33,462 nucleotides of DNA from a virus. The notes beneath the pieces were generated by a model. That model ran no database searches. It saw nothing but the letters and a program-made list of their open reading frames with translations, and was not told the DNA's origin. Shown here piece after piece: positions 5,597 through 30,622 of this stretch; within the stretch, counting starts at the first letter, position 1, and each line of letters starts with the position of its first letter. The stretch is from the IMG/VR virus record IMGVR_UViG_3300022918_000027, positions 1 through 33,462 of that record, one strand, 5' to 3'. The position numbers and the translations under genes were made by a program.

Positions 5597-7357
5597 TTAT
5601 TCCGTCACCACCGGGGCGGCGAGGTCGACCGTGAAGTCGATAGCGCGCTTGCCCTCGTTGCGCCAGGCTCGGACGTCGGCGCTGATCGCGTTGCCCTTGT
5701 GCCCGAGCGTCAAGTCGACGACGTAAATCGCGCACGTCCCCTTACCTTGCGGGAGATGGATAAGCAAGCCCTTGCTCTTGCTCAACTTGAGGTCGACGCG
5801 CTCGTCGGGCTTCGCGGGGTCGTACCCCTTGCTGCCGCTGTAGAGCTCGATCTGCTGGGCGATCTTCCCGGCGCCGTACTCGACCTTCCCTGTCTTGATA
5901 TCCGCGACCACGTGGGCGGCCCGCTGAGTGCCGGGCGCTTTCCACATTGCGGTGCGGTCGAGTCGGCCGGCGACCTTGAGGTCATCGTTGACGACGACCT
6001 GTTCGGAGTGACGCCACACGATGCCCGCGGTCTTGACGGCCTCGACGTAGGCGATCATCGAGTCGAGGTCGGAACGTGTGATGCGCTCCTCGTCGAACTC
6101 GGTCTTAGCCCAGTCGATGCCGAACTCGTCGACCTTCTCGGCGAGGGCGTGGAGGTCGGTGCCCTTGTTGGCCGCGTCGTGCGCGCCACCGATGTCCATT
6201 GCCTCCTCGGCGATTCGGTCGGCGATCGTGTTGAACGTCTTGTTTGCGGTGTCGAGCAGCGGTGCGAGTTCACCCTTGACGAGCTTGCCCTTGCGATCGG
6301 CCTTGAGCGCCTTCGCGATTGCGACGTCGCGGTTGTGCATCGCGTCGCGGATCGTGCCGAGGAAGTACTCGGTCTCCGCTGCGTCGTCGCGCTTGCCCGC
6401 CTGTTCGCCCGCGGTGCGTTCGTTGATCGTGAGACCCTCGAGCATCTTGCGCATCTTCCATTTGGTCAGTTGCGTCTTGTCCTCGAGGTTGTCGATGTAG
6501 GTAGTCGCTCGCGTGTACGCCTTACCACTGCCGTCGGGCGACTTGATCTTGTAGCCGTTGCGGTTCACCTCGACGACGGGCGGCGTGTCGCTCGGGACGG
6601 CGAGCGCCTGGTTGTACGCATCTTCCGCGCCTGGCGTTGCACTGTCGTATCGTGCGTCGATGTAGTTCTCAGCTTTCGGTATCTCCTCGGTCGGCTCGCG
6701 GTCTCCCACGGGCGCCGCGAGGGTCTCGCCGCCAATCTCGACGACGAGCTCGTCGTCTTTCGCCTTGCGTGGCTTCGGCTCGAGGGCAGCCTCGGCCGCT
6801 TTGGCTTCGGCGTCCTGGCGGTCGAACTCGGCTTGGACGTCGGCGGCTGCCTTGTCGCGGGCGTCGCGAAGGCGCTCGAGGTACGAGTCGTCGGTTTCGG
6901 TCTCGCCCTTGCGAGGCTTGATCGTGACGAGCTTGCGCGCCTTGTCCTTCGCCGCTACGCGTAGTTGGATGGTGCGGAACGGTTCGGGCTGCTCCTCGAC
7001 GGGCATCGGGTCGGTGCCGTAGTCGACCTTCACGGTGCGCTCGTCGGCGTCCTCGATCGGCGTCACGTCGAGCTTCGGCTTCTTGCGACCGAGGGTCGCC
7101 TTACGCAACTCCTCAAGCTCAGCGGCGGCGGCCTTGCGAGCTTTGCCCTTCGCGTTCGGATCCGCGACGATGCCGTTGAGTTCGGCGACGCGGTCGAGGT
7201 GCTCGACGTGCGGGTGCTTCGCCTTCTTCGGCTTCTCAGCCTTCGCGGCGAGCGCGGCCTCAAGCTCAGCCTCGCGGCGCTTGAGTTCTTTCTTGCTCGG
7301 CGTCGGCTCGTCGACGACGGCCTTGCCCTTTTTCTTCGACTTGTCCTTCTTAGCCAC
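5597..7357 (-). CDS. PD-(D/E)XK exonuclease, RecB/Cas4-like, with long charged N-terminus
   Basis: This 586-aa protein has a C-terminal nuclease domain with the expected order of motifs: GTDLHALAE (H403), SEQVVV (E452), AGRLDR (D467), VADIKTGK (D486, K488) and QQIELYSG (501-508). The segment YTRATTYIDNLEDKTQL near residue 281 is a conserved lead-in in actinophage members. Such enzymes degrade DNA ends and support recombination-dependent replication. Residues 1-260 are Lys/Glu/Ala-rich, mostly coiled-coil or disordered, and unusually long. The start is GTG with CAGAAAGG. No iron-sulphur Cys cluster is visible, so it is closer to RecB-type than classical Cas4. Confidence 0.8.
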   Translation of the reverse strand: MAKKDKSKKKGKAVVDEPTPSKKELKRREAELEAALAAKAEKPKKAKHPHVEHLDRVAELNGIVADPNAKGKARKAAAAELEELRKATLGRKKPKLDVTPIEDADERTVKVDYGTDPMPVEEQPEPFRTIQLRVAAKDKARKLVTIKPRKGETETDDSYLERLRDARDKAAADVQAEFDRQDAEAKAAEAALEPKPRKAKDDELVVEIGGETLAAPVGDREPTEEIPKAENYIDARYDSATPGAEDAYNQALAVPSDTPPVVEVNRNGYKIKSPDGSGKAYTRATTYIDNLEDKTQLTKWKMRKMLEGLTINERTAGEQAGKRDDAAETEYFLGTIRDAMHNRDVAIAKALKADRKGKLVKGELAPLLDTANKTFNTIADRIAEEAMDIGGAHDAANKGTDLHALAEKVDEFGIDWAKTEFDEERITRSDLDSMIAYVEAVKTAGIVWRHSEQVVVNDDLKVAGRLDRTAMWKAPGTQRAAHVVADIKTGKVEYGAGKIAQQIELYSGSKGYDPAKPDERVDLKLSKSKGLLIHLPQGKGTCAIYVVDLTLGHKGNAISADVRAWRNEGKRAIDFTVDLAAPVVTE

Positions 7358-7700: not shown

Positions 7701-7746
7701 ACTGACCTAACGAGTCAAGACTATGACCATACTCGTTAGGTGTCAA
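7701..7746 (-). promoter_or_regulatory. - strand promoter with paired operators
   Basis: On the - strand: -35 TTGACA (7741-7746), 17-nt spacer, -10 TAGTCT (7718-7723). Half-site ACTCGTTAGG (7731-7740) fills the spacer and its inverted copy CCTAACGAGT (7706-7715) covers the expected transcription start. This layout is shared with the promoter at 10433-10476. The -35 overlaps the 3' end of the upstream gene. Confidence 0.65.
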
Positions 7747-10476: not shown

Positions 10477-10490
10477 GTAGAGTCGTCGGC
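10454..10490 (+). promoter_or_regulatory. leaderless-type promoter of the RHH gene
   Basis: On the + strand: weak -35 TTGCAT (10454-10459), 18-nt spacer containing the AGTCGTTAGGT half-site, -10 TAGAGT (10478-10483), then 7 nt to the ATG at 10491. No ribosome site precedes the ATG, so transcription probably begins at or next to the start codon. Repressor binding to the spacer site would block this promoter as well as the divergent one. Confidence 0.5.
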
Positions 10491-10700
10491 ATGGCAGATA
10501 AGCGTGAACTTCGTTACCCCCGGCAGATCGGCGCGTTCATGTTGAGCGAGGAGCTTGACGACGCTATCCGCGCCGAAGCGCTCCGCCAGGGCGTCACCGT
10601 CGCCGAGGTCATCCGAGTCTGGCTCGAAGCCGGCCGGGCATGCCTACTCGACGCTTCACTCTCACGCGCCAACGGTGGCTCGGGCTACTTGCATCTCTAG
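10491..10700 (+). CDS. ribbon-helix-helix transcriptional regulator
   Basis: The ATG at 10491 gives 69 aa. ELRYPRQIGAFMLSEELDD then AIRAEALRQGVTVAEVIRV fit a short N-terminal strand followed by two helices, with the GVTVAEVIRVWLEAG helix typical of CopG/Arc-type dimers. Such proteins bind short inverted half-sites. The gene is next to a divergent promoter bearing inverted ACTCGTTAGGT-type sites, and it is the only + strand gene inside the early - strand block. It is therefore the likely regulator of those sites, with probable autoregulation. Its 3' end overlaps the HNH gene on the other strand by 39 nt. Confidence 0.7.
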   Translation: MADKRELRYPRQIGAFMLSEELDDAIRAEALRQGVTVAEVIRVWLEAGRACLLDASLSRANGGSGYLHL

Positions 10701-13820: not shown

Positions 13821-14155
13821 GCTGTCACCTCAACGATTCGCCCGTTGCCGCTACAGGTGGCGCAGGGCCAGCCGATGTCGTCGATGCGGTGAGGCGAACC
13901 GGTGCCCTCGCACGCGGGACAGATCACGGTGCCCTCGATGCAACGGATGAGGAGGAGTCCGTCTTGACGGCGTGCCTGGAACGCGCCGGCCGGACGGAAG
14001 GCAGTGAGTATGCCGTTCTCGACGTTGGTCGTCGCAAGACTCGGCACCGAGCCCCACTTATGCCACACGCCGGGATTGTTGCGCATGCGCTCAGCGGCAC
14101 GGTCATAACGAGTGACCACCTTGGGCGGTTCAAGATCGGGGAGGTTTTCAAACAT
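13817..14155 (-). CDS. zinc protein with DnaJ-like CxxCxGxG repeats, first early gene
   Basis: This 112-aa protein ends in two DnaJ-type zinc motifs, CPACEGTG and CATCSGNG (about 79-104), which should bind one zinc ion. The rest is not recognised. It is the first gene of the long - strand block. There is no ribosome site: an extended -10 (TGC then TACATT) ends 6 nt before the ATG, so the mRNA probably starts at the start codon. Confidence 0.6.
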   Translation of the reverse strand: MFENLPDLEPPKVVTRYDRAAERMRNNPGVWHKWGSVPSLATTNVENGILTAFRPAGAFQARRQDGLLLIRCIEGTVICPACEGTGSPHRIDDIGWPCATCSGNGRIVEVTA

Positions 14156-14410
14156 TGAATGAATGTAGCACGGTGCGCGGTGATGCGATACGGCGTGTCG
14201 ACGTCAATTAGTGGAGCCGTTTTCAGGTCGCTTAGTGCGGGGAGCAGCTAGGGAGCATGGCATTTACAAACTTCTTGCGTGCGTGCGTATGTGTGCGCGT
14301 GCGTGTATGCAATAGAGAAGTTGCTGAATCGGGTGCTCACCCCTGCTCCCTGCTCCTTTTGGCCTTAGCTCGTCAAATAAGGGCGCGTTATTTCGAGAGC
14401 TAAGGAAAGT
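14156..14410. other. dyad-rich control region, possible replication origin
   Basis: This gap separates the - strand early genes from the + strand late genes. It holds direct and inverted GGAGCA repeats near 14238-14252 (with copies TGCTCC at 14343-14356), an alternating purine-pyrimidine tract (14278-14311) flanked by ACTTCT and AGAAGT, and an 18-bp interrupted dyad at 14363-14405 (CCTTAGCTC...AAATAA / TTATTT...GAGCTAAGG, loop GGGCGCG). Dyads next to a primase-helicase operon fit an origin, but this is inference. I see no coding gene on either strand here. Confidence 0.45.
14162..14170 (-). promoter_or_regulatory. extended -10 promoter of the early operon (leaderless)
   Basis: On the - strand TGC-TACATT (14162-14170) is followed by CATTCA and the ATG at 14155. 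No clear -35 is seen. This spacing predicts transcription starting at the A of the ATG. The same arrangement recurs at several + strand genes. Confidence 0.5.
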
Positions 14411-14425: not shown

Positions 14426-14509
14426 GAAACCCAAGACGCCTCCGCGCACCGCCTCGCCGAGCAGTGGCGGGCCTCGCAACGGCGGTGCGCCGAGTGCTAT
14501 ACTCGTTAG
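14411..14509 (+). CDS. possible 32-aa leader ORF
   Basis: ATG at 14411 is preceded by AAGGAAAGT and the frame runs to a TAG (14507-14509) directly abutting the GTG at 14510. The product would be 32 aa, MTLVIETQDASAHRLAEQWR followed by 12 more residues ending AECYTR. The abutting stop and start would allow coupling, but the same DNA also holds the -10 box and operator of the next gene. It could be a real small gene, a leader peptide or chance. Confidence 0.3.
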   Translation: MTLVIETQDASAHRLAEQWRASQRRCAECYTR

Positions 14510-14511
14510 GT
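14495..14511 (+). promoter_or_regulatory. extended -10 promoter overlapping the third ACTCGTTAGGT site
   Basis: TGC-TATACT (14495-14503) is an almost ideal extended -10. CGTTAG follows, then GTG at 14510, so the transcript would begin at the start codon. The half-site ACTCGTTAGGT (14501-14511) spans the end of the -10 and the start point, where a bound regulator would block initiation. Confidence 0.6.
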
Positions 14512-15898: not shown

Positions 15899-16100
15899 CG
15901 AGTGCCGCATACCGCCGATCCTGCAAGAGCGTGACTGTCTCGCGACGGTGAGCGTGACAAGCAACGGCGAGGTCGTAGCTACGTTGAATTGCTGCCTCGT
16001 GTGGCCGCACCTCGATCAGCCGCACCGCGTCGAGTGGCCCATCGATGATGAGGACCGACTCTTGACGCAGCTAGAGCGTGACCTCTACCGCCCACTGTAA
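15891..16100 (+). CDS. hypothetical small protein (69 aa)
   Basis: The GTG at 15891 overlaps the previous stop (GTGACTGA) and gives 69 aa; a GTG at 15870 would add seven residues. It is a compact strand-rich protein (CLATVSVTSNGEVVATLNC) with several Cys. No family recognised. Its TAA stop falls in the -10-like box preceding terL. Confidence 0.45.
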   Translation: MTDECRIPPILQERDCLATVSVTSNGEVVATLNCCLVWPHLDQPHRVEWPIDDEDRLLTQLERDLYRPL

Positions 16101-16109
16101 GATCGCCGC
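16098..16109 (+). promoter_or_regulatory. possible leaderless promoter of terL
   Basis: TAAGAT (16098-16103) followed by CGCCGC and the GTG at 16110, with no ribosome site. The spacing matches the leaderless-type starts at 17891, 19589 and 22126. The -10 match is only 4 of 6, so this is the weakest member. Confidence 0.35.
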
Positions 16110-17672
16110 GTGACCCCCGACACACGGCTTGACGCGTACCTGCTCAAGCTCGCCAAGCGCATGCGCAAAGTCAAGCGCGCGCTTACTAAGACGGGGCGTC
16201 CCTTCGCCGAGGGTGAGCTCGACTCGCTCGTACGCCGCACCGTCACCGAGGCCGACCCGCTCGCCTTCGCGCTGATCTACCTCTTGCACCACCTCAAGAG
16301 CGGCCTCAACCACGACGGCGACGTCACCCTCTCCGACGTTCATTGGGCGTGGGTGAATCGCGCTAAGGGGTGGATGACAGCGCCGACCGAACCGTACGAG
16401 TCGCGACACGCCGAGGTCGGCCCGCGCGACGTCGGTAAGTCGACGTGGAACTTCTTGATCCTGCCGATGTGGGCAGCCGCGCACGGGCACGTGAAGTTCG
16501 CCGCCGCCTTCTCGTCGACGCCGACACAGGCTGAGAATCACCTCGCATCGTTCAAGGCTGAGCTCGACAACAACGTGCTCCTTCGCGCCGATTACGCCAC
16601 ACTCTGCGAGCCTCGTACCCGTGGGCGGGGTCAGGTCGCCGCTGACCGGGTCTCGCTCTATCACGCCAAGAGTGGCTTCGTGTTCGCCGCGGCCGGCATG
16701 GACTCGTCGAACCTCGGTATGAAAGTCGGCGCGTTGCGACCCGACCTCATCGTCCTCGACGACATCGAGCCACACGAGGGGCAGTACTCGGCGGCCCTCG
16801 CACGCAAGCGACTCGGCACCCTCCTCGACGCGATCCTCCCGCTGAACATCTACGCCCGCGTCGTGCTCGTCGGTACTGTCACGCTCGAGGGATCCATCGT
16901 TCACCAACTCGTCAAGAGCGCGAAAGGCGAGCAGCTTAGCGACGACGAATCATGGATCGCCGAGCAGCGTTTTATCGCCCACCACTACCCCGCGATCATC
17001 GAGAACGACGACGGGACCAGGCGAAGCGTATGGCCTAGCAAGTGGTCGCTCGCGTTCCTCGAGTCGATCGAAGGCACGCGCACCTACGCGAAGAACTACG
17101 CCAACGACCCGCTCGGTGCCGACGGCGACTATTGGACGCCTGACCTGTTCCTGCACGGCGACCTTCCCGGCGTGTCGCGTCGCGTCATCTCGATCGACCC
17201 GAACGTCACGCAGAAAGCGACGAGCGACTACACGGGTATCGGCGTCGTCGGCTGGGCGCCGAGCACCAACCGTTGCCGGGTTGACTTCGCGACTCAGGTC
17301 AAGATGCAACCCGACAAGCTCCGCGACCACGTGCTACTACTCATCGCCGAGTACCGCGTTGGGCTGCTCATCATCGAGGTCAACCAGGGCGGTGACTTGT
17401 GGCTCAAGGTGTTCCACGACATGCCGATACGCGTGAAGGTCATTCACCAATCCGAGCCGAAAGAGGTGCGCGCCGCCGACGTGCTGCACCACTACGAGCT
17501 CAAGAAGGTCGTGCACGCGAAAGGTCTCGGGATTCTCGAGGGGCAAATGGTCGCGTTCCCGAACGCACCGCACGACGACATGGTCGACGCGGTCGGCACG
17601 GCGGTGCGCTTCTTCCTCTCACGCAAACGCAAACAGAGAACCGGCGCGGAACGACAGACGTATATCTCATGA
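16110..17672 (+). CDS. terL: terminase large subunit (ATPase-nuclease)
   Basis: This 520-aa protein is the DNA-packaging motor. The ATPase domain has Walker A GPRDVGKST (104-112) and Walker B LIVLDDIE (213-220). The nuclease domain has SIDPNVT (D363), LIIEVNQGG (E423) and HDDMVDAVG (D489/D490, D493), the usual three acidic clusters. The length is normal. It acts with the portal and small terminase at the head vertex. The GTG start follows a -10-like box rather than a ribosome site. Confidence 0.95.
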   Translation: MTPDTRLDAYLLKLAKRMRKVKRALTKTGRPFAEGELDSLVRRTVTEADPLAFALIYLLHHLKSGLNHDGDVTLSDVHWAWVNRAKGWMTAPTEPYESRHAEVGPRDVGKSTWNFLILPMWAAAHGHVKFAAAFSSTPTQAENHLASFKAELDNNVLLRADYATLCEPRTRGRGQVAADRVSLYHAKSGFVFAAAGMDSSNLGMKVGALRPDLIVLDDIEPHEGQYSAALARKRLGTLLDAILPLNIYARVVLVGTVTLEGSIVHQLVKSAKGEQLSDDESWIAEQRFIAHHYPAIIENDDGTRRSVWPSKWSLAFLESIEGTRTYAKNYANDPLGADGDYWTPDLFLHGDLPGVSRRVISIDPNVTQKATSDYTGIGVVGWAPSTNRCRVDFATQVKMQPDKLRDHVLLLIAEYRVGLLIIEVNQGGDLWLKVFHDMPIRVKVIHQSEPKEVRAADVLHHYELKKVVHAKGLGILEGQMVAFPNAPHDDMVDAVGTAVRFFLSRKRKQRTGAERQTYIS

Positions 17673-17673
17673 G

Positions 17674-17702
17674 TTGACGGAACGTCGACGAGTCGTTATG
17701 TT
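17674..17702 (+). promoter_or_regulatory. sigma70-type promoter downstream of terL
   Basis: TTGACG (17674-17679), a 17-nt spacer, then TATGTT (17697-17702) form a good promoter match. Transcription would start around 17708-17710, immediately before the predicted hairpin-forming sequence. Confidence 0.5.
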
Positions 17703-17704
17703 TG

Positions 17705-17793
17705 AGGCACCCCTTGGCGGGGGCTGCTGTCGGTATCTGGCTAATCACCTAATGGCGCGGCGAAGGACGACAACGCATTAGGTCTTGGTGCCT
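17705..17793 (+). ncRNA. structured RNA candidate between terL and the SGNH gene
   Basis: The arms AGGCACC (17705-17711) and GGTGCCT (17787-17793) can close a domain of about 89 nt. Inside it ACCTAATG (17747-17754) pairs with CATTAGGT (17776-17783), and CCCC/GGGG form a competing hairpin near 17710-17723. A sigma70-type promoter ends just before it. It could be a small RNA, an mRNA leader structure or a DNA site such as a packaging element. It is not a tRNA: no T-arm or anticodon arm can be drawn. Confidence 0.35.
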
Positions 17794-17874
17794 GAGACAA
17801 GCCGGGTGTCGTCGCTGGTTGCAGTCTAAGAACGAGGCGTCGCTACACGCCTACCCCGTCAAGGGCCACCCGTC

Positions 17875-17890
17875 TGGTATCCTCGCCGTC
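17875..17890 (+). promoter_or_regulatory. extended -10 (leaderless) promoter of the SGNH gene
   Basis: GTCTGGTATCCTCGC is followed by CGTC and the ATG. Almost the same sequence precedes the portal gene (19571-19588). TG-G-TATCCT is an extended -10, and no ribosome site is present. Confidence 0.5.
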
Positions 17891-19540
17891 ATGGCGACCA
17901 CTGTGAACGTAACCCTCACCATTGCACCGGCGACGGTTGTCACGGTTGGAATCGATGAGTATTACGACCTGCTCCGACAGAACCTCATCTACTCCGTGGT
18001 CGGCGGCGGCCCGGTAGACCGCCCCGACTTTAGCGACGAGCAGTACGCCGAACTTGAGGATCCGGCCGGGCTATTCGGTAAACACCTCGGCAAGAGTCTT
18101 GGCAGCGATGGAACGCTTGGGCTCAAAACGTCCCTTGATTCCAACTACGGTACGCATCCCGTAGGTATGGACTTTGTCGACGGAACGCCGAACACACGGC
18201 GCTCTACGCTAGTGCTCAGCGCACCGAACACGACTGTGGCATCGGGCAGCGCGATCGACTACGCCCAGCGGGTCCAGGTGCTACTGCCCGTCAAGACGAC
18301 GCGCTGGCGCTTCCGCATTGCTAACCGAAATATTCTCGCTGGCACAAGCCTCACCTCCGCGCTTGTGTGCACTGACATGTATCTCGGCGCACCCGCTGCA
18401 TCGGCAACCTATGTAGCGGGGGGTCGGTGGAGCGGGTCATTCGTTTCCGCCCCTGCCAAAGTTCTTTCTGGCTTCTCCGTCCCGACCGATGGCTCTGATT
18501 ACGTATCTCCGTGGGTGACAGATTCGAGCAAGCAATTCCAGCCCTATGAGGCCGCGATGCTGTCCTACGGCCTCACGGCCGCAACAGGCGGAACTGGGTA
18601 CGCGCGCGGTGCATCTGAACAATGGGCGTTCAAGGTCGGTGGATCTGCCGAGTTCGCCTCCACCACTCTCGCCGCTGCAACCGTTGGTCGCTCGGGCAAC
18701 TGGGGCGACGTGCGGATCGAGTACGAATACACCGAAGACGTGCCGATCGTCGCTGTCGTAGGAACGTCACTCGACTGGGGTTACGGCGATGGCGACATGA
18801 CCACGCTGCAAAATGGCTGCCTGGCTCACGAAGCTTGGCCGGTCGCGGCCGGATTGCAGGGGCGGTTTGTCGCGATCAACCTCGCGATTCCTTCGGCGGT
18901 CGCCGCCAACTTCGGGGCTGCAAACCTGTCGAGCTTTACTCGCGTGGATTGGGCAACGACCGTTCCCGATGTCGCTGTCGTAGCTGGGTTTACAAACGAT
19001 GTTGGCGCGTCCCGCTTCTCGACCATGACCGCGATTCTGACGACCGTCGCTGTGCTCAAGTCCCTCGGAGTGAAGCGCATCGTGCTCGCGACACTCCCGC
19101 CTCGAGGGGACATCATCACCGGGACTGTTGGTTCACTTGCGGCCGCAGCGTCCTCGGGTGCCACTTCAGTTTCGTCAACTATCTCAGTGGCCAGTGGCCA
19201 GGGCTTCCAGATTGGCACTGGTCGCACGCAGCAAGTAGTGGCGACAACGGGTGCCCCGACCGGATCAGGACCATACACGATACCCGTACCGGCGCTATCG
19301 GCAGCACACGCCAGCGGCGAAGTTGTTTACAGCGGATCAGAACTAAACCGCCGCCAGATCAACGACTTCATCCGGCAAGTGCCACAGGGGGTGCATCGAG
19401 TTCTCGACTTCGATCGTGAGCTTGCCGCTACTCCCGGCGCAAGCGTGATGGACCCTAATTACGCGAGCGCCGACACGCTGCACATTCTCCGAGCCGGGGC
19501 TCAAAAGCAAGCGGATATAGCTGCCGCGCTCGGTCGGTAA
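17891..19540 (+). CDS. SGNH-hydrolase structural protein
   Basis: The ATG at 17891 gives 549 aa. Residues 1-285 look like beta-rich virion protein. An SGNH/GDSL esterase domain follows: block I VVGTSLDWG (S293), block III AGFTNDVG (N369, D370) and block V ADTLH (D528, H531). Residues about 410-482 are an inserted beta module (GATSVSSTISVASG, then SAAHASGEVVY) seen in many phage surface proteins. The enzyme probably de-esterifies host surface glycans. Its place between terL and portal, away from the tail genes, is unusual. Confidence 0.75.
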   Translation: MATTVNVTLTIAPATVVTVGIDEYYDLLRQNLIYSVVGGGPVDRPDFSDEQYAELEDPAGLFGKHLGKSLGSDGTLGLKTSLDSNYGTHPVGMDFVDGTPNTRRSTLVLSAPNTTVASGSAIDYAQRVQVLLPVKTTRWRFRIANRNILAGTSLTSALVCTDMYLGAPAASATYVAGGRWSGSFVSAPAKVLSGFSVPTDGSDYVSPWVTDSSKQFQPYEAAMLSYGLTAATGGTGYARGASEQWAFKVGGSAEFASTTLAAATVGRSGNWGDVRIEYEYTEDVPIVAVVGTSLDWGYGDGDMTTLQNGCLAHEAWPVAAGLQGRFVAINLAIPSAVAANFGAANLSSFTRVDWATTVPDVAVVAGFTNDVGASRFSTMTAILTTVAVLKSLGVKRIVLATLPPRGDIITGTVGSLAAAASSGATSVSSTISVASGQGFQIGTGRTQQVVATTGAPTGSGPYTIPVPALSAAHASGEVVYSGSELNRRQINDFIRQVPQGVHRVLDFDRELAATPGASVMDPNYASADTLHILRAGAQKQADIAAALGR

Positions 19541-19572
19541 CTCGCGTCGCTAATTGCGTCGCGGCTGGCGTC

Positions 19573-19588
19573 TGGTATCCTCGCGCTC
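19573..19588 (+). promoter_or_regulatory. extended -10 (leaderless) promoter of the portal gene
   Basis: TGG-TATCCT (19573-19581) and CGCGCTC precede the ATG at 19589, with TTGCGT about 16 nt upstream of the -10 as a weak -35. No ribosome site is seen. The sequence is a near copy of that before the SGNH gene. Confidence 0.5.
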
Positions 19589-21202
19589 ATGGCGAACCGA
19601 CCCGACGAACTCCCGCAAATCCTCGACGACCTCGCCGCGGGGTGCAAGGTGATCGACGACCGGCACGCCGACTACGTCAAGGCGAAGGCGTACAAAGAGG
19701 GCGACGTCAAGGAGATGACCGGCACGAACCGGCTCATCCGCAAGGTGCTCACCATGACCGCCGAGTCGCACAAGCTCGCCTTCGCGGGCATCCCGGTCAC
19801 GGCGTTGTTCGACAAGATCAACCTGTCCGGCATCACGACCGACAACGAGGCCGCGACCAAGGCCATCGCCGACGCGTTCGAACGTGACGACCTCGAGGAT
19901 GAGGCCGACGACTACCAGGTGAAAGCCGGTATGTTCGGCGACTACTACCTCATTATCGACCCGCTCGAGCAAGACGAGAGCGGCAAGGCTACCGACCTCA
20001 CAACCGTCGGCGCGTCGCCCCTCTCGTCGGCAATGGTATACTCGAAGAAGGACAACCGCACCGCTCGCTTCGGGGTACGCCGCTGGAAAGCTGGCACCGC
20101 CGCGGCGCCCGAGTACAAGGCGCTCGTGTACTACGACGACTGCACGGTTGCTCTGACCTCGGCCACCGAGAAGCCCGAGATGTTCGAGCCCGACTACGAG
20201 TACGACGAGAACGGTGTCGCGGTCGAGAACTCGCACATCGTTCCCCACCTCGGCGGCCACAAGCTGCTCGTGCACTTTGCCGTCGACGACAAGCCGTACG
20301 GCCGCCCCGTGCACATCAACGCGTACGGCCCACAAGACGCGATCAACAAGAAGCATGCGACCTCCCTGGCGAACGACGAGCGCATCGGTTGGCCGTCGCG
20401 CTACGCCATCGCCGACCCGAAGGCATCCGTTGAGGATGACGACTTGGGCGAGGACTTCGGCGACGACGGTCTCCCCGTCGACACCGACCACCCGGTTACC
20501 GGAACGGGTGCCGACGGACAGAGCAACGTGACCGGCGACCGCTCACGTTCCCTCGCCGACGAGCCTGGCGCGATTACGAAACTGTTCGGCGTGACAAGTG
20601 TCGGCACCTTCGCCGCCGCATCGAACGACGGCTTTATCGCCGGCCTCGACTGGGAGGTGCGCGCAATGGCGACCCTCACCGGCACACCGATCGCCGAGTT
20701 CGACGAGAGCGCCAACCCGCCGAGCGGTGTCGCCCGGCGCCTCGCGAACACGCGCATCAACAACCACGCGAAGAAGGTCATTCGCTCACTGTCCCGCTCG
20801 TGGCGCACGTGGGGCGAAACGGTCCTCGCCGTGCAGGGGATCCCGGCCGCCAAGGTCGTCGTCGCGTACGAACCCGTGCAGACCGAGACCGACTCCGAGG
20901 GTCTCGCCCTCGTGACGGCCAAGGTCAAGGCGGGCGTGCCGATCGCGCGTGCACTCGTCGAGGCTGGCTATCCCGAGGCCGACGTCAGTGAATGGTGGCC
21001 TGACGAGAGCGCGTTGCTTCCACCCGACCTCTGGCCACCGTTCGCCGAAGCCGTTGCGAAGCTCACGACAGCGAGCGCTCTCGGCGCGCCGGTCAACCTC
21101 GCCGACCTGTTCGGTGCGTATATGTCGGGCATCACTCGTGAACCCGCACCGACACCCGCGCCCGTCCCGGCGCCTGTCGTCGAACCGCCCGTAGCCGAGT
21201 AG
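19589..21202 (+). CDS. portal protein (SPP1-like)
   Basis: This 537-aa protein matches phage portals in size and position after terL. Recognisable parts are the N-terminal LAFAGIPVTALFDKINLSG, GMFGDYYLIIDP, KLLVHFAVD, and PYGRPVHINAYGPQDAINKK with a long helix, then a Pro-rich tail (APTPAPVPAPVVEP). It forms the dodecameric ring at the packaging vertex and contacts TerL and the connectors. It is followed by the MuF-like gene after 4 nt. Confidence 0.85.
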   Translation: MANRPDELPQILDDLAAGCKVIDDRHADYVKAKAYKEGDVKEMTGTNRLIRKVLTMTAESHKLAFAGIPVTALFDKINLSGITTDNEAATKAIADAFERDDLEDEADDYQVKAGMFGDYYLIIDPLEQDESGKATDLTTVGASPLSSAMVYSKKDNRTARFGVRRWKAGTAAAPEYKALVYYDDCTVALTSATEKPEMFEPDYEYDENGVAVENSHIVPHLGGHKLLVHFAVDDKPYGRPVHINAYGPQDAINKKHATSLANDERIGWPSRYAIADPKASVEDDDLGEDFGDDGLPVDTDHPVTGTGADGQSNVTGDRSRSLADEPGAITKLFGVTSVGTFAAASNDGFIAGLDWEVRAMATLTGTPIAEFDESANPPSGVARRLANTRINNHAKKVIRSLSRSWRTWGETVLAVQGIPAAKVVVAYEPVQTETDSEGLALVTAKVKAGVPIARALVEAGYPEADVSEWWPDESALLPPDLWPPFAEAVAKLTTASALGAPVNLADLFGAYMSGITREPAPTPAPVPAPVVEPPVAE

Positions 21203-21206
21203 CCCG

Positions 21207-22112
21207 ATGGCTGGCACCGCGACAGCCACACAACGCGAGCTCCTCGCTCTTGAGGCAAAGGTGCTCGCATCCGCTGGCGACGGGTGGCTCAACTCGATCG
21301 ACGAAATTCGCCGCGACCTCGCCAACGAGGACGTCGACACGCGTAAGCAAGTCCTCGCGCTCATCGCCCCGAAGATTGAAGCGGGTGCCAAGCTCGCCGT
21401 CGCCGACGCGTTCAACATCGGGCGCGCCTCGGCACTGAGCATCATCAAAGGGCAGCGCGTCGGCGACAAGATCCTCAAGGCCGCGAACTCGAAGGCGGCG
21501 AAAGCCGGGCCGAGCGCCCGTGCCGTCGGCACCCTCGACGGACTCGACGCACGCAACGCCGAAGCTCTCGACCTGGCACGTAAACTTCTCGCGGCCGGCG
21601 CTGAACTTGACGCGGTATGCACACCACTATTCGCCGCCGCGAACTCAACGCGCGCATCGGTAACGTCATCGATCAACATGAGCGGCAACGACGCGACAAC
21701 GCTTGTCGCCGACGCTGCCGACTTGCCGACCGTATGGGTAGCCGAGACCGATGCGTGCGTCGAGTGCCTCGCCTACTCGGGTCTCGCTGCCGATCCCGGC
21801 GACCTGTTCCCCGGTGGACTCAGCTACGACAAGAGCTATAACGACGAGGATCTAGAAGCGCCACCGTTGCACCCTAACTGCCGCTGCACGGTCGAGCCTC
21901 TCGGTGATCCGTCGTACGCCGAGGCGCTGCGTCGTGAAGCTGACCGCTCGGTGTTGCGCGGTTTCAGCCTTGAGAGCGAAGGCATGGCGACGCGGATTCG
22001 TGCTGCCAAGAAGCTCATCGAGGGCGGCGTCGACGCGCCCAAGAGCGTTATCGACTACGCGAAGAAGTCAGTGAAAAAGGGCGAGTTCGCGACTCGTGGC
22101 CGACCCTCGTGA
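21207..22112 (+). CDS. MuF-like head morphogenesis protein
   Basis: This 301-aa protein lies directly after the portal gene. The C-terminal half has VWVAETDACVECLAYSGL, DPGDLFPGG and PPLHPNCRCTVEPLG, the signature of the MuF / minor capsid family with its Cys/His cluster. Such proteins are packaged in the head and help assembly or are injected with DNA. The last residues are basic. Its TGA stop forms the TG of the next gene's extended -10. Confidence 0.8.
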   Translation: MAGTATATQRELLALEAKVLASAGDGWLNSIDEIRRDLANEDVDTRKQVLALIAPKIEAGAKLAVADAFNIGRASALSIIKGQRVGDKILKAANSKAAKAGPSARAVGTLDGLDARNAEALDLARKLLAAGAELDAVCTPLFAAANSTRASVTSSINMSGNDATTLVADAADLPTVWVAETDACVECLAYSGLAADPGDLFPGGLSYDKSYNDEDLEAPPLHPNCRCTVEPLGDPSYAEALRREADRSVLRGFSLESEGMATRIRAAKKLIEGGVDAPKSVIDYAKKSVKKGEFATRGRPS

Positions 22113-22125
22113 TATTCTCCCGCGT
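22110..22125 (+). promoter_or_regulatory. extended -10 (leaderless) promoter of the M15 peptidase gene
   Basis: TGA-TATTCT (22110-22118) then CCCGCGT and ATG at 22126. TATTCT matches 5 of 6 and the TG extension is in the right place. No ribosome site precedes the ATG. Confidence 0.55.
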
Positions 22126-22620
22126 ATGACTCTCGTTACCTTTCAGACCGTAGAGCTCGACCCCGACCTCGCCCGTGAACTCAAGCGCCTGACTATCCGT
22201 CTTGCCGCTCGCGGTATTCGACTCCGCCCAGTGGACAGCAACTCTGGCGCTCGCACCATTGCCACGATTCGTGATATGCGAACACACCCCGCGAAGTACA
22301 GAATCACGGCTGCCGCGGCAGCGGGGCTGAGTGATGACTCCCCCCATCGGTACGGTCTTGCGTGCGACCTCTCTATCGTTGAGGTTAATTCTCGATTCAA
22401 CGACATCGATGCAACCTGGAGAAAGCGGATAGGGGCGAATACTTCCGCTATCTACGATTACGCCGAGCACGTTGCTAGCCACTACGGGTTGAACGTCGAT
22501 CGCCCGCTTTACCCGGCCCGCGCTGGCGAGCGCAATCACTTTGTCCTCGACTCGCGCGTCGGCATCAAGCCGCTCAGCGCCAGCGAGCTCGTACAGTATC
22601 GCCGAGCGCTCAAGCTGTAA
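22126..22620 (+). CDS. M15-type zinc peptidase, candidate endolysin
   Basis: The ATG at 22126 is favoured over an in-frame GTG at 22096 because a good leaderless promoter ends just before it; the product is 164 aa. SPHRYGLACDLSI gives the M15 zinc motif H-x6-D (H74, D81), and GERNHFVLD supplies a catalytic Glu (E135) and third zinc ligand (H138). This is the layout of VanY/endolysin-type L,D- or D,D-peptidases that cut peptidoglycan cross-links. It has no cell-wall-binding domain or signal peptide. Its position among head genes is unusual for a lysin. Confidence 0.7.
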   Translation: MTLVTFQTVELDPDLARELKRLTIRLAARGIRLRPVDSNSGARTIATIRDMRTHPAKYRITAAAAAGLSDDSPHRYGLACDLSIVEVNSRFNDIDATWRKRIGANTSAIYDYAEHVASHYGLNVDRPLYPARAGERNHFVLDSRVGIKPLSASELVQYRRALKL

Positions 22621-23396: not shown

Positions 23397-23405
23397 TGCT
23401 ATATT
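23397..23405 (+). promoter_or_regulatory. extended -10 promoter for the major capsid gene
   Basis: TGC-TATATT (23397-23405) is a near-consensus extended -10 located about 105 nt upstream of the capsid ATG. No good -35 is visible. It would add transcription for the most abundant virion protein, and this transcript would carry a long leader with a ribosome site. Confidence 0.5.
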
Positions 23406-23460
23406 CGCACGCAAGAGGTCACCCCTCCGCGCTCGTGATGAGCAAGTTGAATCGTTTAGG

Positions 23461-23493
23461 TCGGTTCGACTTACCCATCAACTAACGAACCGA
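23461..23493 (+). promoter_or_regulatory. leader hairpin next to capsid ribosome site
   Basis: TCGGTTCG (23461-23468) and CGAACCGA (23486-23493) form a perfect 8-bp inverted repeat with a 17-nt loop, ending inside the ribosome binding region (GAAAGGGTGG). The loop carries CTAACGA, the core of the RHH-linked half-site. The hairpin may tune capsid translation or mRNA stability. Confidence 0.45.
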
Positions 23494-23510
23494 AAGGGTG
23501 GCCTTTTCTC

Positions 23511-24671
23511 ATGGCCCGTAACACACTCGAGGCGTGGATTCCCGAGGAGTACGACTCCTCCGTCATCGCGCGCATCGCGGCAACCTCGGCAATCGAGGCA
23601 ACCGCCCGCAAGATCCCGATGAAGTCCGACAGCAAGTGGGTACCTCGTACCGCTGGCATGGACGTCGAGCTCATCCCCAAGGGCGGCGCGTACGGCGAGG
23701 ACACCTCGCTCAACGACTCCGTTCTCCTCACCGTCTACAAGTTCGGTAAGGCTCTCCGCATCGCCGAAGAGGACATCGACGACTCGGTCGCCGACCTCAT
23801 CGCAGCGAAGAAGACCGACTGGGGCACGAGCTACGCTCGCATGCTCGACAACTCGGCACTCGGCACGACCGCCGCGGCGAACGGCACAACCGTTGCCTTC
23901 ACGTCGGTCTACCGCGCACTGAGCCAGACAGACGCCGCAACCGGATACACCGCCAACCAGAACATCACACAGGCGGGCACCCAGTTCGGTACCGTGACGT
24001 TCACCGACGCGGGCGACATCATCACCTTCGCGACGCCTCACAACCTCGTTGTCGGTGACAAGTTCAAGGTCGGCACTGTCACGTCGACCACGGGCATCAC
24101 GGCCGGCACCACGTACTACGTGCGTACCGTCCCGTCGTCCACGACGATCACCGCGAGCGCCACGCTCAACGGTGCAACGCTCGCGCTCACCACTGACGGC
24201 AGCGCCGCAAGCGCAACCGCCAAGGCGGGCCAGGCGTCGTACGACAACCTCAACGCAACGCTCGCGATCTACGAGGGTGGCGACTACTTCGACGAAGCGA
24301 ACACGGTGATCTACGCTCACCCGACGCTCAAGTCGAACCTTCGCGGACTCAAGGACAACAACGGCCTCCCGCTGTTCGTTGAGAACCCGCGCAAGGGCGA
24401 CCCCGAAACCCTGTTCGGGTACCCGATCAAGTTCACCAACGGTGCACGTACCTCGGCTGTTTCGACCTCGAAGCCGACGGGCAACCCGCTCGTCATCTTC
24501 GCGAACACCGACTACCTGTTCCTCGGTGTTCGTTCCGGTCCCGAGTCGATGGCTTCGGACGGCAACACGGGCGCGTCGATGCTTACCGATGAGGCGCTCA
24601 TCAAGATGCGTTCGCGTCGTGCGTTCGCTCTCGCCAACGAGTTCGCGGCCTCGGTCCTCGAAATCTCCTAG
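23511..24671 (+). CDS. major capsid protein, HK97 fold
   Basis: This 386-aa protein has GAAAGGGTGG before the ATG. N-terminal sequence (WIPEEYDSSVIARIAATSAIE, ARKIPMKSD, then FGKALRIAEEDIDDSV) and C-terminal elements (HPTLKSNLRGLKD, FGYPIKFTN, and ALIKMRSRRAFA) are typical of HK97-type capsids in actinophages. Residues about 155-235 are an inserted beta domain (DIITFATPHNLVVGDKF, TGITAGTTYYVRTVPSS) likely exposed on the capsid surface. It forms the icosahedral shell with scaffold and portal. Confidence 0.9.
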   Translation: MARNTLEAWIPEEYDSSVIARIAATSAIEATARKIPMKSDSKWVPRTAGMDVELIPKGGAYGEDTSLNDSVLLTVYKFGKALRIAEEDIDDSVADLIAAKKTDWGTSYARMLDNSALGTTAAANGTTVAFTSVYRALSQTDAATGYTANQNITQAGTQFGTVTFTDAGDIITFATPHNLVVGDKFKVGTVTSTTGITAGTTYYVRTVPSSTTITASATLNGATLALTTDGSAASATAKAGQASYDNLNATLAIYEGGDYFDEANTVIYAHPTLKSNLRGLKDNNGLPLFVENPRKGDPETLFGYPIKFTNGARTSAVSTSKPTGNPLVIFANTDYLFLGVRSGPESMASDGNTGASMLTDEALIKMRSRRAFALANEFAASVLEIS

Positions 24672-28637: not shown

Positions 28638-30622
28638 CCGTGCTACTGGCCGAGGCGACTGTTGCCGTCAAGACCGACACGTCAAGCGTCGGCCCCGACG
28701 CCGAGAAGGGAGTAAAGTCCCAACGCGGCGTATTCTCCCGCATCGGCACCGTGGCGGGAGGCATCATTGCAGCCCAGCTTGTGACGAAAGGCGTCGCCGC
28801 CGTCAAGTCGATCTTCACTACGGGACTCGGCGAGGCAAAGGACGCCTCCGCGCTGAACGCCCAGCTTGCCGCGGCCATCACGTCGACAGGCAACGCGGCC
28901 GGCGTGAGCGTTAGTTATCTCAATGAGAGAGCCTCCGCGATACAAGCGATGAGCGGGCAGACTGACGACTCGATCGCCGCGGCACAGTCGTTGTTGCTCC
29001 GCTTCCAGTCGATCAACAACAACGGTCCCGACAAGATCTTTGACCGGGCCACCCTCGCCGCCGCGAACATGGCGGCGCGCCTCGGCGGCGACGCCTCGAG
29101 CCAGGCGACCAAGCTCGGCATCGCGCTCGAGTCACCCGAGAAGGCAGTCGCCAAGCTCGCCCGTTCCGGCGTCACGTTCAGCGAAGATCAGAAAAAGATG
29201 ATCGACGCGCTCGTCGAGACCGGCGACAAGGCTGGCGCGCAAAAGATCATCCTCGACCAGTTGGACGCAACCTATGGTGGTGCCGCTGAGAGCGCCGGTA
29301 AGACGCTGCCCGGCATGCTCGCACGCATCCGCCGCGGCTATGAGGACGTTACACAGGTCGTCACCGAGGCGTTTATGCCTGTCGTTCTTCCGGTGCTCGG
29401 GTGGTTGGCTGACCGCGCCGAAACGGCGGGTGATCGCGTCAAGTCCGTCACGGACAATATCAGCAGCTTCTTTGGCGACATCGACATCGGTTCGTTGGTC
29501 GAGACTATTCAGCAGTTCTCGCCGCTCATGCTCATCATCGAAACGATCAAGCCTCTACTCCCGCAACTCGCGGACTCTTTCAAGCAAATCCTTCCGATCA
29601 TCAAAGACGTTGCGACGTCGTTCGGGTCGACGCTTGGCACCGTGCTCAGTGAGGACGTCGTGCCCGCACTGACGAACGTTCTCGAGGCGCTCGTTCCCCT
29701 CATTCCGTTGCTCGCTGAGTCTCTCGGCGACGCGCTTATCAAGCTCATGCCCGCGTTCTCTGACCTCATTGTCGCGGTGCTGCCGCTGCTGCCGCCGCTC
29801 ACCGACCTCTTGCTTTCCATCATTCCGCCGTTCGCGGCGCTGCTCACAAACGTCACGATCCCCGCGCTCGTGTGGCTCGTTGAGGTATTCGCCGGGGCTG
29901 TCACGGCAGCGACCGACCTCGCCGATTACTTCGCTGGCGACACGTCGCTATCGGACCTGGCCGACCGCGTCAACGCACTGGGTGGCCCGTTCGGGAAGTT
30001 CGTGAAGTGGATCGAAGGGCTCATGCTCGCGATCTGGAATAACTTCATTGCGCCCGTCATCATCAACTTCAAGAAGTTTCAACAGGTAGTCGCCGACGTC
30101 GTGGGTAACGTGCTCGGCTTCTTCGGGAAGATTACGACGACCGTCGGCAAGGTCGGCGAGAAGATCGGTACGTCGATCGGCGGTGCCGCAACATTCATCG
30201 GTAGCACCTTCGGCAACATTGTGAACTTCGTCAAGGGCGGAATCAACAACGTAATCAGCCTGGTCAATAAGGGAATCGCTGCACTCAACAAGTTCAAAGT
30301 CACGCTGCCCGACGCCCTCGGCGGCATGACGATCGGCCTAAGCATCCCGTCGATACCGATGCTCGCTCGAGGTAGCAACAACGCACCCGACACATTCATC
30401 GCTGGCGAGAAGGGGCCGGAACTCATCACGGGTGCGGCCGGTTCGACGGTGCGGCCGTACTCCGCAACGCAAGACATTCTCGCGCAAGGCGGCGGGACCA
30501 CCAACCACTTTGCCGCGGGTGCGTTTACGATCGACCTGTCGAAAATCAAGTCGCTACAAGACCTCATCGACCTCATCGATACACTCAATCAAACGATTCG
30601 CACCAACCCGACCGGGAGTTAG
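28634..30622 (+). CDS. tape measure protein (662 aa, short)
   Basis: The ATG at 28634 overlaps the T-like stop (ATGA). The 662-aa product has an Ala-rich N-terminus, a hydrophobic central section (SPLMLIIETIKPLLPQLADS, VLPLLPPLTDLLLSIIPPF, IPALVWLVEVFAGAV) and a C-terminal AGEKGPELITG, a usual tape measure motif. Using about 0.15 nm per residue, the tail would be roughly 100 nm. The length relation is established for this family; the number is an estimate. Confidence 0.9.
   Translation: MTVLLAEATVAVKTDTSSVGPDAEKGVKSQRGVFSRIGTVAGGIIAAQLVTKGVAAVKSIFTTGLGEAKDASALNAQLAAAITSTGNAAGVSVSYLNERASAIQAMSGQTDDSIAAAQSLLLRFQSINNNGPDKIFDRATLAAANMAARLGGDASSQATKLGIALESPEKAVAKLARSGVTFSEDQKKMIDALVETGDKAGAQKIILDQLDATYGGAAESAGKTLPGMLARIRRGYEDVTQVVTEAFMPVVLPVLGWLADRAETAGDRVKSVTDNISSFFGDIDIGSLVETIQQFSPLMLIIETIKPLLPQLADSFKQILPIIKDVATSFGSTLGTVLSEDVVPALTNVLEALVPLIPLLAESLGDALIKLMPAFSDLIVAVLPLLPPLTDLLLSIIPPFAALLTNVTIPALVWLVEVFAGAVTAATDLADYFAGDTSLSDLADRVNALGGPFGKFVKWIEGLMLAIWNNFIAPVIINFKKFQQVVADVVGNVLGFFGKITTTVGKVGEKIGTSIGGAATFIGSTFGNIVNFVKGGINNVISLVNKGIAALNKFKVTLPDALGGMTIGLSIPSIPMLARGSNNAPDTFIAGEKGPELITGAAGSTVRPYSATQDILAQGGGTTNHFAAGAFTIDLSKIKSLQDLIDLIDTLNQTIRTNPTGS

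Follow-up and report, generated by a model that had tools for sequence, protein, structure and literature searches.

Gene Order and the Seven Junctions

The virus record analysed here over its whole length of 33,462 bp (the window; GC content about 63%) shares its gene order with the Microbacterium phages Isperia, Wyvern, and OscarSo, with about 40% identity in the portal protein, and GenBank phages include almost no close nucleotide relatives of it. As the nearest named relatives infect Microbacterium, we infer an actinobacterial host, in line with the actinobacterial context assumed in an earlier note on this DNA. A search of viral contigs for further relatives succeeded with TerL as the query, and a portal query against the same contigs gave no confirmed matches. 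The clade considered below consists of the window, the three named phages, and 15 metagenomic loci (L003–L016 and L050). Rfam and tRNA scans of the window returned no matches.

The genes of interest begin with a regulator of the RHH type (69 aa, start at 10491, plus strand), followed by a prim-pol/D5 helicase on the minus strand and a zinc-ribbon-like protein of 112 aa (start at 14155, minus strand). Beyond these lie a plus-strand gene of unknown function (GTG at 14510), a TerS-like gene named by its position (15156), TerL (GTG at 16110, plus strand), a GDSL-lipase-like cargo gene (ATG at 17891, plus strand), the portal gene (ATG at 19589, plus strand), a MuF-like gene (21207), an endolysin-like gene (ATG at 22126, plus strand), the scaffold gene (22653), and the capsid gene (ATG at 23511, plus strand), the latter named by position and by annotated capsid homologues in the relatives.

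The earlier note had proposed that at seven of these starts a -10 box stands 6–7 nt before ATG or GTG, with no ribosome site, and all seven read as it described. Extended -10 elements are found at the zinc-ribbon-like gene (TGCTACATT, 14162–14170, minus strand, 6 nt to the ATG) and, on the plus strand, at the 14510 gene (TGCTATACT, 14495–14503, 6 nt), the cargo gene (TGGTATCCT, 17875–17883, 7 nt), the portal gene (TGGTATCCT again, 19573–19581, 7 nt), and the endolysin-like gene (TGATATTCT, 22110–22118, 7 nt), the TGn of the last being supplied by the TGA stop codon of the MuF-like gene. The two remaining plus-strand sites, TAGAGT before the RHH-type gene (10478–10483, 7 nt) and TAAGAT before TerL (16098–16103, 6 nt), have no TGn, so that the extension described for most sites is present in 5/7. 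The TAA of the TerL site doubles as the stop codon of the preceding gene; this site is the weakest of the seven, and the TerL genes of the relatives do not have the same arrangement. The arrangement common to all seven starts is thus TANNNT, 6–7 nt, and ATG or GTG, and we refer to it as a leaderless-type start. The two TGGTATCCT copies, said to be near-identical over some 25 bp, agree at about 25 of 27 positions (CGTCTGGTATCCTCGC..TCATGGCGA.C). As also claimed, other genes of the window, about 10 in number, are preceded by GAAAGG ribosome sites. The division into two start classes is therefore supported, and the classes are, moreover, assigned to particular genes and conserved in the lineage.

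Spacing, Shine-Dalgarno Strength, and Promoter Composition

On both strands of the window TGNTANNNT occurs 10 times, and five of these occurrences sit 6–7 nt before ATG or GTG, compared to 0.8 ± 1.0 expected from dinucleotide shuffles. Before the 46 predicted starts of the window (the choices at 10491, 17891, and 22126 being taken from the earlier note) TANNNT is found three times at a gap of 6 nt and four times at 7 nt, and never at gaps of 0–5 or 8–10 nt. The same peak at 6–7 nt appears in the independently annotated phages Isperia (5 sites), Wyvern (2), and OscarSo (6), and in the four annotated genomes no TANNNT stands at gaps of 2–5 or 8–10 nt. Among 905 mechanically called ORFs of related loci, 68 have the motif at a gap of 6 nt and 32 at 7 nt, with about five at every other gap. 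Shine-Dalgarno (SD) pairing at leaderless-type starts is weaker than at other starts (median -1.9 versus -5.4 kcal/mol, p=4e-8), which bears out their description as starts without a ribosome site. A pyrimidine immediately precedes the start codon at 56 of 63 sites (22/22 at the 7-nt gap), compared to 107/167 for other starts, and this favors transcription beginning at the first base (A or G) of the start codon. A generic -35/-10 scan of the window misses the leaderless-type sites, because most of them lack a -35 element: at 16–19 nt no -35 hexamer is found at the portals (best match 3/6), one is present at the relatives' genes after TerL, and a G occupies the TGn position in 16/18 portals.

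One further property of these junctions is the frequent use of a stop codon as part of the -10. In the four annotated genomes, all seven TAA or TAG stops lying 9–10 nt before the next start have a T at the sixth position of the -10, compared to 8/79 for all other TAA/TAG stops (p=1e-6). Among sites at called ORFs, stop and -10 overlap in 12/61 cases in the clade, 1/42 in the host class, and 1/34 in other actinophages. The closest parallel is the overlap of a stop codon with the SD sequence of the next gene (PMC2784483), in which the stop likewise doubles as an initiation signal at a junction; there, however, it is the SD of a leadered gene that the stop overlaps, while in the phages it is the -10 of a leaderless-type gene. 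A literature search covering few subscription journals returned no report of an overlap between stop codon and -10.

Fixation at the Portal Gene

The most striking case is the portal. TANNNT, 6–7 nt, and an ATG at residue 1 are found in 19/19 portal genes of the clade (a count that includes the identical pair L012 and L015), whereas the background rate of leaderless-type starts is about 1% per gene. The clade proteins share only 33–46% identity with the window portal, and their upstream DNA has no sequence in common apart from the -10 motif. Every one of the 18 relatives compared has retained this placement, which indicates that it is selected and not due to chance. In the portal tree the clade forms a single supported group, and the leaderless label requires three changes overall. 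Outside the clade, 58/61 portals have an SD start and no leaderless-type start. The Streptomyces-type relatives have a portal-proximal TANNNT 22–32 nt upstream of the gene together with a strong SD. A portal-proximal promoter thus looks common to both lineages, with a leader in one and none in the other; as the tree is unrooted, it does not give the order of these states.

The pattern also bears on annotation. The GenBank portal starts of Isperia (L083; 3780) and Wyvern (L084; 4602) are probably misplaced and should probably be moved to 3888 and 4611, respectively, where leaderless-type starts match the conserved portal N-terminus.

Conservation at the Other Genes

Most of the remaining sites, too, recur at homologous or positionally equivalent genes of the relatives. 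TANNNT at 6/7 nt is found near the start of the zinc-ribbon gene in 3/3 homologues (L006, L015, L016), TATGCT at 6/7 nt before the 14510 gene in 2/3 (L008, L014), and TACGAT at 6 nt before the only homologue of the cargo gene (L007). The positional counterpart of the 10491 gene, an RHH gene of OscarSo at 29432, has TACGAT, 7 nt, and ATG. The lysin site has a positional equivalent in most relatives and is missing in L005, L006, L008, L010, L013, and L014. TerL, examined as a candidate for a conserved leaderless gene, was rejected, the arrangement not being found at the TerL of the relatives.

Genes after TerL in the relatives are preceded by a cassette composed of a TTGACR-17-TANNNT-like promoter, 6 nt, and ATG, with a recurring CACTA-type spacer (L083, 3242; L084, 3992; L085, 3522; L009, 7484; L014, 5407 and 6017, where it is repeated before two genes). 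In the window, the 218 nt between TerL and the cargo gene (17673–17890) hold no obvious ORF start, and they do hold a promoter-like TTGACG-17-TATGTT (17674–17702, plus strand), in the position where the relatives carry their leaderless genes. This region may be a remnant of such a gene.

The Leadered Capsid Gene

The capsid gene presents the opposite design. An extended -10 (TGCTATATT, 23397–23405, plus strand) lies about 106 nt before its ATG, and a similar element is found 90–115 nt upstream of the capsid gene in the window and in most of those clade members for which a capsid was matched. In six leaders (window, L003, L004, L005, L006, and L014), from which model R1 was built (23411–23525 of the window, plus strand, first codons included), the 5' end is predicted to pair with the region of the ribosome site, which in the window is GAAAGGG. 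Of the 22 pairs, 10 are changed on both sides, a value reached in 0/500 shuffles, and sliding the pairing partners abolishes the covariation signal. A search with R1 detected the L008 capsid leader strongly and those of L012, L013, and L083–L085 weakly, with nothing else below E=0.01 in 0.7 Mb; no Rfam family fits the leader. The predicted accessibility of the ribosome site is near zero in the window, and Isperia-like leaders are predicted to be largely open. According to these models, then, the capsid gene has a promoter similar to that of the portal, but, in the window together with six relatives, a covarying leader that buries the ribosome site.

A terminator-like GC hairpin (unscored) stands immediately 5' of the capsid promoter in L083, L084, L085, L012, L013, and L016, suggesting a separate transcription unit. 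In the Streptomyces-type relatives a different, strong capsid leader structure is predicted, likewise burying its GGAGGG.

Interpretation and Alternatives

The mark of these starts is familiar from cellular genomes. A TANNNT about 12 bp upstream is the signature of leaderless genes in Actinobacteria (Zheng, 2011; PMC3160421), and leaderless genes or mRNAs make up from more than 20% to 33% in the host class (PMC3160421, PMC3890552), the latter value being that for mRNAs of Corynebacterium glutamicum (PMC3890552). The TA-led genes of Actinobacteria and Deinococcus-Thermus (PMC3160421) have the same spacing peak and no SD; however, they are cellular and expected to be first in their operons, while the phage sites are found within a late operon, with fixation at the portal gene. 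Mycobacterial and corynebacterial leaderless transcripts (PMC4633059, PMC3890552, PMC7148126) share with the phage sites the ATG or GTG, the TANNNT -10, and the absence of a leader, but their 5' ends were mapped experimentally while those of the phage are predicted. The basic mechanism is already known in the hosts. In Escherichia coli, leaderless mRNAs are spared by kasugamycin (PMC5230787).

Known leaderless phage genes include cI of lambda. Gene 90 of mycobacteriophage Adephagia is another single phage gene, predicted to be leaderless (PMC11373665). Unlike these single toxin-antitoxin or regulatory genes, the sites considered here belong to late virion genes and to a whole lineage. A literature search with limited coverage of subscription journals found no report of leaderless genes in Microbacterium phages.

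It is likely, from the sequence features described, that the seven sites are leaderless promoters of the sigma-A type, with transcripts starting on the start codon. Host sigma-A-type promoters, mostly with an extended -10 and often without a -35, would drive transcription from the start codon itself, and the resulting mRNAs would be translated by actinobacterial ribosomes without an SD site. The points at which such starts recur in the lineage (the RHH regulator, the first rightward gene, TerS, replaced in the window by TerL, cargo genes after TerL, the portal, and the lysin) would divide the late operon into units, each with a start of its own. With no ribosome site at the start codon, poor use on read-through mRNA is expected, and the output of a unit would then depend on its own promoter. 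The start-codon 5' end, the leaderless translation, and this decoupling from read-through are all parts that we infer from sequence.

Three other explanations have to be weighed. That the motifs are chance TA-rich stretches at GC-rich junctions, with TA contributed by stop codons, is scarcely credible: stop codons in a GC-rich genome do contribute TA, but this would account neither for the empty neighboring gaps in the four genomes, nor for the T accompanying every closely placed stop, nor for the portals of the clade, and shuffles, gap profile, and conservation together rule out a chance origin. It is improbable, if less so, that the motifs are minor promoters and that the genes are expressed mainly from the polycistronic late mRNA by termination-reinitiation. 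Many stops do lie 9–16 nt before leaderless-type starts, and re-initiation on read-through mRNA is possible where the distance is about 10 nt; the portal start, however, lies 48 to 154 nt past the preceding stop in the window, Isperia, and Wyvern, and SD pairing is weak.

A better case, though still an unlikely one in our judgment, can be made for the phage merely following a host habit, the sites having no phage-specific role. The same signal is present at 42/436 ORFs (9.6%) in 25 stretches from Actinomycetes and in roughly 5–16% of the genes of surveyed Microbacterium phages, and these baselines rule out the notion that leaderless starts are unique to the window phage. However, other surveyed, unrelated actinophages, Microbacterium phages among them, have such sites mostly at genes that are small and early, regulatory, or of unknown function and not at terminase, portal, or lysin genes, while in the head region of the clade they reach 30% of ORFs, with the portal fixed, compared to 2% in the Streptomyces-type relatives. 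What is peculiar to the lineage is that leaderless-type starts occur within the operon of virion genes and have become fixed at the portal.

As to the purpose of the putative leaderless promoters, we tentatively favor dosage: independent, modest supply of proteins needed in few copies or as enzymes (portal, TerS, lysin, cargo), with the abundant capsid and tail proteins made instead from leadered GAAAGG starts. This reading relies on the assignment of genes to the two classes (portal, TerS, lysin, and cargo versus the GAAAGG-led capsid, scaffold, and tail) and on the observation that in Mycobacterium smegmatis leaderless reporters yield less protein than a strong leader (PMC7148126). Low dosage is not certain, as the same study found leaderless mRNAs to be translated equally to those with a weak leader (PMC7148126). 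The earlier note had suggested that the two classes might serve to time monosome (70S) initiation; no sequence sign of temporal control was found at the late leaderless-type sites, and dosage or autonomy would account for the gene assignment no less well. In its broadest form, the proposal would be that the design of the 5' end sets protein ratios in one late operon. The 12-copy portal, TerS, and lysin would have no source other than leaderless transcripts of their own, the stop codon of the preceding gene serving as the -10 at several of the junctions, and the capsid would be made, from a similar promoter, through a covarying leader closed over its ribosome site; the split between the lineages would be a leadered/leaderless switch of an essential virion gene. 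We offer this as a conjecture that may well prove wrong in part or in whole.

The lineage provides a conserved, gene-specific viral use of leaderless-type starts with culturable members (Isperia, Wyvern, and OscarSo on Microbacterium), so that the purpose of leaderless initiation becomes testable at the portal gene, and it provides a probable correction of two annotated portal starts.

Operator-Like Repeats and a Mini-ORF

Copies of an operator-like sequence, TCGTTAGGT, are found in the window at 7705 (minus), 7733 (plus), 10433 (minus), 10462 (plus), and 14503 (plus). They include two inverted pairs spaced 28–29 nt apart; the site at 10491 adjoins the inverted repeats ACCTAACGA/TCGTTAGGT, and the remaining copy (14503–14511) runs across the start codon at 14510. 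The RHH protein encoded at 10491 is a candidate for binding these repeats. In L018, L020–L024, L047, and L025–L029, a ACCTTTGATTCRAAGGT-like palindrome lies beside the Streptomyces-type portal promoter, a possible late-gene operator. Finally, Wyvern has, at about 7252–7278, a mini-ORF of eight codons (MTPDRRIS) with a leaderless-type start; the end of this ORF coincides with the annotated start of the endolysin, which has a GAAGGA site of its own.
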